Notes under the pieces: generated by a model
The model's input: the letters and a program-made list of their open reading frames with translations, nothing else
What the model was told of the DNA's origin: nothing
Database searches by the model: none
Translations under genes and position numbers: made by a program
In this document: piece by piece, positions 13,664-14,115 of the stretch
How the letters are laid out: each line of letters opens with the position of its first letter
How positions within the stretch are numbered: position 1 is the stretch's first letter
Source of the DNA: Candidatus Avelusimicrobium vaccinum
Lineage (GTDB): Bacteria > Elusimicrobiota > Elusimicrobia > Elusimicrobiales > Elusimicrobiaceae
DNA length: 44,769 nt
Assembly (NCBI GenBank): GCA_902794895.1
Contig: CADBIY010000011.1
Coordinates: 1-44,769 of the forward strand
Reading direction: 5' to 3'

Positions 13664-13694
13664 ATCCCGGCAGTTTTTTAGCCGGGATTTTTTG
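13664..13694 (+). terminator. Rho-independent terminator at the end of the Tad-like operon
   Basis: ATCCCGGC (13664-13671) pairs perfectly with GCCGGGAT (13681-13688), followed by a run of T. It separates the pilus locus from the unknown operon that starts at 14116. Confidence 0.85.
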
Positions 13695-13702
13695 TGTGAG
13701 AA

Positions 13703-13726
13703 AACCCCCTAGCCAGGCATGGGGTT
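13703..13726. repeat. Short hairpin AACCCC...GGGGTT
   Basis: AACCCC (13703-13708) and GGGGTT (13721-13726) are inverted, 12 bases apart, directly after the terminator. There is no T-run after it. It may be part of the same intergenic repeat element as 13767-13870; function unknown. Confidence 0.4.
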
Positions 13727-13766
13727 CCGTTAAGATTCTACCGATGAACCGGTTGTTAAGATAAAT

Positions 13767-13870
13767 CATCAAGTCATCCTGAACTTGATGCAGGATCTTC
13801 AACGAATGTTGTGGTAGTTACGAAACAGCAACGGCAAAAGCGGAAGATTCCAAATCAAGTTTGGAAGGAC
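13767..13870. repeat. Pair of inverted 28-bp palindromic units (MITE/REP-like)
   Basis: Unit A at 13773-13800 and unit B at 13843-13870 are homologous when B is read on the - strand: both begin GTC, share AACTTGAT in the middle and end ATCTTC. Each is itself a palindrome with different arm bases (ATCCTG/CAGGAT in A, TTCCAAA/TTTGGAA in B), so arm changes are compensated. An extra 8-bp pairing, CATCAAGT (13767-13774) with ACTTGATG (13783-13790), overlaps unit A and would make a pseudoknot in RNA. Similar AACTTGAT-centred palindromes are known as dispersed intergenic repeats in several bacteria (recalled, not searched). Confidence 0.7.
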
Positions 13871-13999
13871 GTTTTATTTATAAAAACAGCAAGAACAAAG
13901 CGTGGGGATGTTTATTATACCATAAGAGGCAGAGGCCGGATAGAGAAATTCCGGCATAACCTACTTTGTTTATTTTTCCTTTTTTTCTCAAAAAGGTCC

Positions 14000-14028
14000 T
14001 TGACAATCCGTTCATTTCTACTTATACT
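14000..14028 (+). promoter_or_regulatory. Sigma70-type promoter of the unknown operon
   Basis: TTGACA at 14000-14005 and TATACT at 14023-14028 with an ideal 17-base spacer. The 5' leader to ATG 14116 would be about 80 bases. The rest of 13639-14115 contains no convincing gene; it holds the terminator and repeats listed separately. Confidence 0.85.
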
Positions 14029-14115
14029 GTAAATAGAAGCAACAGGAACTCTGTGTTTGAGTGGTTGAAAAACCAGGTCAACAAGAGTAGTTTTTATTTA
14101 TGTAAAGGGGTTTGT

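Follow-up and report, generated by a model that had tools for sequence, protein, structure and literature searches.

An inverted pair of short palindromes lies between a tadE-like gene and the promoter of the next operon in Candidatus Avelusimicrobium vaccinum, raising the question of what kind of element it is and how it came to be there. The window, which is the whole 44,769-nucleotide stretch that was analysed, is contig C11 of a genome of 1,450,640 bases in 30 contigs (98.88% complete). The pair is very probably a CGTC-type REP heterodimer that rides as cargo in an element derived from an IS200-type (IS200/IS605) insertion sequence (IS) and devoid of a transposase. The parts are of known kinds. 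Their nesting, together with the palindromes found in prepilin signal peptides, is unusual.

The REP units and their arms

Unit A occupies positions 13773-13800 on the forward strand, and unit B, inverted, occupies 13843-13870 on the reverse strand. The sequence itself confirms the two 28-bp units in opposite orientation reported by the first-pass annotation, and a free-arm pattern search and arm statistics also support both units. Each is composed of the tag GTC, an 8-bp stem enclosing the loop CTTGA, and the tail CTTC. The stem arms are ATCCTGAA and TGCAGGAT in unit A and CTTCCAAA and TTTGGAAT in unit B. Seven of the eight stem pairs hold in each unit, the broken ones being an A-G in A and a C-T at the stem base in B. 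The base before the tag is variable (A or C in the window; A, C or T in other copies), and the stem consensus of CTTGA-loop units is AT plus 6 bp. The spacer between the units (13801-13842) aligns with the spacers of the other copies in the genome. Dimers of genome G011 mostly have spacers of 28-30 nt with the complementary ends TCACC and GGTGA.

The first-pass annotation held that the arms are conserved as structure rather than as sequence, and the congeners agree. All five tested arm positions are complementary in 142 of 149 congener units, with 12 different fully complementary arm sets; this count leaves out one mis-entered row of the 150 listed, which the pair totals include. Over the 150 rows, 738 of 750 arm pairs are complementary, and 2000 shuffles of the 3' arms gave a mean of 454 and a maximum of 499. 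At the loci that include the window's own genome, 105 of 115 units have fully complementary arms. Of 37 pairs of neighbouring congener units, 33 are inverted (+-), and in these the two sides never carry the same arms (0 of 33; 7.3 expected; 0 of 20000 shuffles). With the own genome included, 46 of 51 neighbouring pairs are inverted and 0 of 46 are homotypic (12.25 expected) in a set of hand-picked regions whose own-genome copies are related by descent; like all the arm and pairing statistics, these figures come from related sequences that are not independent and show a pattern, not a probability. Compensating changes in the arms keep the REP stems palindromic, and the differing arms of the two partners would prevent the formation of one long 98-bp hairpin.

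The units occur far beyond chance. Allowing up to 3 mismatches, the free-arm pattern is found at 54 places in the own genome (27 forward and 27 reverse, 29 of them exact), mostly as inverted pairs, and a reversed-pattern control gives 0. A single-copy sequence is thereby ruled out. A fixed-core, free-arm pattern has matches in 26 of 61 genomes of the genus, with 0 for the reversed pattern in all 61. With a stricter pattern, a collection of genome contigs yields 60 stretches, and fully complementary arms are present in 75 of the 83 matches within them. Eight of these stretches belong to other groups (three Bacteroidales, two Treponema/Treponemataceae, Sulfurimonas, Cyclobacteriaceae and Patescibacteria), so the unit type is not private to the genus. 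Matches at query 355-389, seen in several genomes and often near contig ends, were not counted as copies, since each is a short match to either the right-end hairpin or a terminator hairpin.

The REP-like character first proposed for the units is supported by their CGTC-type tag, stem and loop. In the available text of Di Nocera et al. 2013 (PMC3733652), CGTC REPs share with the units here the GTC tag, an AT-initial 8-bp stem, a 5-nt loop, the arrangement as inverted dimers, frequent heterodimers, complementary spacer ends and a location behind genes. Their tail, according to the same text, fits CCA in most cases, not all, whereas the units here end in CTTC. The class assignment rests on the unpaired CGTC/TGTC/CCTC-like tag beside the stem, the AT-initial stem of 8-9 bp with a loop of 4-5 nt and the mostly inverted dimers, all of which were found; the CCA tail, which was not, is not counted as defining. 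A further difference is that the dimer here rides inside an IS200-derived element. The string 'Elusimicrobi' is absent from the text of PMC3733652. Later literature on CGTC REPs was not found among the matches listed, and a full-text search with the motif letters returned only titles on human biology.

A probable IS200-derived carrier

The first-pass annotation took the 98-bp pair to be the mobile unit, and this does not hold. BLAST of window positions 13740-13900 against the own genome gave 37 matches at E<=10. Fifteen of them, the window copy included, are near-complete, with >=140 of the 161 query bases aligned at 79-100% identity. When 18 BLAST loci were aligned with their flanks, similarity ran past the 98 bp on both sides. 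The repeat is an element of ~330 bp with IS200 ends, present in full at, for example, L032-L034 and L037. The window copy spans ~13694-13916 (~223 bp) and is missing the greater part of its right end. The copies in this genome have diverged, with a median pairwise identity of 83% and a best pair of 98%, and the alignment shows several to be truncated.

All carrier parts of the window copy are placed on the forward strand. The left end (13694-13747) has a hairpin, AACCCC...GGGGTT, at 13703-13726 after GAAAA. It is conserved in other copies and is 80% identical, over 13687-13747, to the left end of a complete IS at locus L094 of the congener G032. Between this end and the dimer is an A/T-rich flank (GTTGTTAAGATAAATCATCAA, 13748-13772) that is present in most own copies and recognisable in L183, an element of G032. 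The A/T-rich right flank of the dimer (13871-13893), defined by alignment of the own copies, is followed by a right-end remnant at 13894-13916, in which AACAAAGCGTGGG is joined to GGGGATGTTTATT. The remnant was identified against the right ends of L032-L045 and the IS right ends ...GGGGGATATTTATT; at ~23 bp, it is too short for testing alone. Other copies have a right end of ~150 bp; the window copy lacks the bulk of it and apparently keeps the tail GGGGATGTTTATT.

At L094, a Y1_Tnp locus, tnpA is flanked by the repeat's left end on one side and its right end on the other. The IS query taken from it (L094:1320-2040, minus strand) has tnpA at query 151-642 (163 codons). The encoded TnpA matches Pfam Y1_Tnp, scores 143.4 bits against NF033573 (IS200/IS605; cut-off 55) and 36.9 against REP_Tyr_transpos, below the cut-off of 80; the ISHp608 transposase is one of its relatives in the PDB. 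Searched against the own genome, this IS gave left-end matches at query ~7-70 and right-end matches at 593-717, with a best E of 4.8e-32. The tnpA interior gave only matches of <=24 bp at E>0.2 in this genome. Among the 15 near-complete copies, the left end was matched in 10, the right end in 13, both in 9 and at least one in 14; the C10 copy matched neither, and the window copy matched by its left end alone. The right-end match starts at query 593, ~50 nt before the tnpA frame ends, and its inclusion of the tnpA 3' end points to internal loss of tnpA, not to borrowed ends. The REP dimer occupies the place of the missing tnpA interior. Read from its sequence, the repeat is composed of the IS ends and the last ~50 nt of tnpA, with the rest of tnpA replaced by the REP dimer and the left end toward the T-run of a terminator. 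G032 carries both the IS and L183, a transposase-free REP-dimer element, and the left ends of the two are near-identical.

The idea of a non-autonomous, MITE-like element is upheld by the IS200 ends and the lack of a transposase gene. With ends and sub-terminal hairpins common to IS200/IS605 IS and no transposase gene, the element also answers to the description of IS200-derived MITEs and of PATEs, as known from Haloquadratum. In the available portion of PMC3119063, PATEs likewise have no transposase, a deleted core and sub-terminal palindromes common to IS200/IS605-type IS; they derive from IS605-type transposons, and other small elements are found inside them. One PATE-like case in Halanaerobium appears in the available portion of PMC7290912. 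The element here differs from PATEs, as they appear in that portion of PMC3119063, in having a REP heterodimer as cargo, multiplied along with the carrier, and a host bacterium of another phylum. The likeness to the IS200/IS605 family (ISHp608 type) lies in the TnpA family, a hairpin near each end, a length of ~700 bp and a single tnpA in L094. The element differs from that family in being without tnpA and in its strong preference for insertion behind terminators.

Could the 98-bp pair instead be an autonomous REPIN moved by a RAYT, with the flanking similarity incidental? Two inverted, tagged hairpins are a REPIN-like architecture, congeners often have solo dimers that lack IS ends, and REPINs/RAYTs and BIMEs are, like this pair, intergenic, multi-copy and built of paired inverted hairpins. 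Their tag is GTAG, however, and here it is GTC with no RAYT partner found. The matching RAYT-type transposase suggested by the first-pass annotation did not materialise. Y1_Tnp was not found in the own genome (98.9% complete), though within the genus 11 of 61 genomes carry such genes. A scan of 66 genomes of the genus gave a single RAYT above the cut-off (L145, G026:C50:1-2600). It is flanked by GTAG-type REPs (GTAGGTCAGGC...GCCTGAC), and no exact-core GTCAT unit is present in this 2.6-kb stretch. Moreover, the IS200 end in 14 of the 15 near-complete copies means that the pair moved together with IS ends in this genome. The REPIN explanation is therefore unlikely.

Under the preferred reading, that of an IS200-derived carrier with a REP dimer as cargo, an IS200-like TnpA acting in trans would have recognised the sub-terminal hairpins and mobilised the element in single-stranded form, by excision or by copying. 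Insertion would have occurred 3' of T-rich target DNA, supplied by terminators, and the REP dimer would have multiplied with each transposition. Because the own genome is without a transposase, we infer mobility from the copies, and their divergence (median 83%) implies that the movement is mostly old. The window copy is probably immobile now, as most of its right end is lost and the genome has no TnpA.

The available text of PMC3733652 gives CGTC REPs no dedicated transposase and leaves their mobiliser open. The nesting of a REP dimer in an IS200-ended element is a partial answer to that question in one lineage. It offers a concrete route, as cargo of an IS200-derived carrier, with a dimer multiplied in one genome and a congener that holds both IS and element. 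It also supplies two sequences for assays of TnpA binding and cleavage.

Several side observations concern the IS200 copies and right ends. By eye, the tnpA start region of IS200 copies L092-L098 has a possible hairpin, CTCCTTTTGT...ACAAAAGGAG, that would mask the ribosome-binding site. Positions 1-420 of L098 (G045) contain tandem ~101-bp repeats, each with an inverted pair of the GTC-tagged, CTTGA-loop REP type, with an IS200 copy ~1 kb away. At L106 (G000:C1:171891-171978), a lone right end of the element lies beside a GTC-tagged palindrome with other arms and a longer loop (GTCATCCCCGA...TCGGGGATCTCC).

Insertion sites and the downstream promoter

An intrinsic-terminator-like hairpin (ATCCCGGC/GCCGGGAT; stem 9 with one mismatch in the terminator test) with a T-run lies at 13664-13693 on the forward strand, and the insertion point is directly behind it. 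Of 16 own copies, 15 have such a hairpin with a T-run <=24 nt to the 5' side of the hairpin in the left end; the L034 copy has no terminator at its left. The same test was positive for six of seven congener elements (six IS and one element), against a background of 299 of 4612 positions. The seventh, L183, has by eye a T-run behind a longer inverted repeat. An IS200-derived element would be expected to insert 3' of a fixed tetra- or pentanucleotide without duplicating its target. The sequence GAAAA precedes both end hairpins. According to the available text of PMC6006769, a guide tetranucleotide 5' of the hairpin foot pairs, in the IS200/IS605 family, with the target flanking the left end. An A-rich guide and a T-rich target would explain the preference for terminators.

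These placements bear on a further explanation, in which the element is no transposition leftover and has been retained at the 3' ends of genes for its action as a bidirectional terminator or insulator. By a mechanical ORF call, 10 of the 15 near-complete copies sit between convergent genes, and the end hairpins with their flanking A and T tracts read as terminators. However, nearly all insertion points (the 15 of 16 above) are already behind a terminator, making a second one unneeded, and divergence and truncation of the copies also argue against retention. Intergenic and convergent placement is expected from tolerance as well. Retention as a terminator or insulator is decidedly unlikely.

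The IS200-derived carrier is absent from this position in the relatives inspected. A 2-kb query with both neighbours of the window copy has a match in 64 of 66 genomes. At the junctions of 12 relatives, the tadE-like gene is followed within ~20-120 nt by a conserved TTGACA-17-TATACT promoter, and the element is absent; the comparison covers relatives that show the conserved leader, and locus L143 lacked the search motif. The nearest relatives are ~79% identical at the window locus, where the empty site is not readable to the base. In the window, the promoter-like site is at 14000-14028 on the forward strand, bearing out the position just upstream of the operon's promoter that was first claimed. 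An inherited regulatory part of the downstream operon is ruled out by the orthologous promoter regions of relatives without the element. The present effect of the window copy is likely passive: a longer gap between the tadE-like gene and the next operon's promoter, plus hairpins.

The first-pass annotation also raised a pseudoknot. The overlapping 7-bp stem, CATCAAG/CTTGATG, is indeed possible in the window copy; it is not conserved, for of 16 aligned copies one has it at 7 bp and three more at 6 bp. That a structured RNA with this pseudoknot regulates the downstream operon is highly improbable, for although the window copy can form the stem and lies upstream of a real-looking promoter, the stem is so rarely complete, the element is upstream of and outside the operon transcript, relatives have the promoter region without it, the window has no Rfam match at gathering thresholds, and the DNA fold of the window copy is only moderately better than shuffles (z -1.89).

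A separate 5' leader hairpin, ACTCTGTGTTTGAG-[variable stem]-GGTCAACAAGAGT, is present at window positions 14047-14090, just before the first ATG of the operon. By eye, 12 congener loci have the same frame with differing self-complementary inner stems. This hairpin is possibly a regulatory RNA.

REP dimers in prepilin leaders

In type IV pilins, the prepilin peptidase removes the leader. Congener REP dimers that lack IS200 ends are found immediately at pilin genes, and their presence inside prepilin leaders is the most surprising part of the finding. The dimer is in frame within the prepilin leader, upstream of the motif FTLIELLVV, in 20 of 39 loci (38 picked as pairs or near-pairs from the free-arm search of the genus, plus L183). 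In nine others a unit or dimer precedes the motif without such an in-frame leader reading, nine more have no motif nearby, and L183 has the motif elsewhere. The motif is within ~60 nt in 20 of 22 inspected G011 dimers. The own genome has two leader genes with a dimer, at C7:36287-36354 (L054) and C2:175073-175142 (L056).

Together with these two, 22 leader genes with an in-frame dimer were inspected (the others being from L146-L175 of G011, G054 and G037), and their leader peptides are 38-81 aa long. A Shine-Dalgarno-like motif precedes the ATG in 21 of the 22. Twelve leaders have no ATG within or after the dimer, and six have no ATG, GTG or TTG there, so these six are producible solely by translating the dimer. 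The dimer is found in either orientation relative to the pilin gene, which implies at least two insertion events; pilin gene duplication may explain many of the leader copies. N_methyl matches number 62 in the own genome and at least 150 in G011, where 150 of 238 candidates were scored. Pilin genes are abundant, yet the 150 nt before them are a small fraction of the genome.

A broader proposal, which is tentative and more doubtful than not, is that the GTC-tagged REP heterodimers of Elusimicrobiaceae are mobilised in trans by an IS200-type TnpA and have two safe harbours, IS200-derived carriers behind terminators and in-frame prepilin leaders. If this is true, the prepilin peptidase would cut away the dimer-encoded peptide before pilin assembly, and a DNA parasite would stay harmless through host protein processing. 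The prepilin-leader dimers would then be a testable case of mobile DNA neutralised by proteolytic processing. Among the matches listed, a literature search found no report of REPs in prepilin leaders or in Elusimicrobia. The nearest likeness is to the Rickettsia palindromic elements, of which RPE-4 and RPE-6 are equated with CGTC REPs in the available text of PMC3733652. Those are in-frame palindromes within protein genes, as is the REP family here in prepilin leaders; the difference is that here one kind of place, the prepilin leader, is used repeatedly in several genomes.
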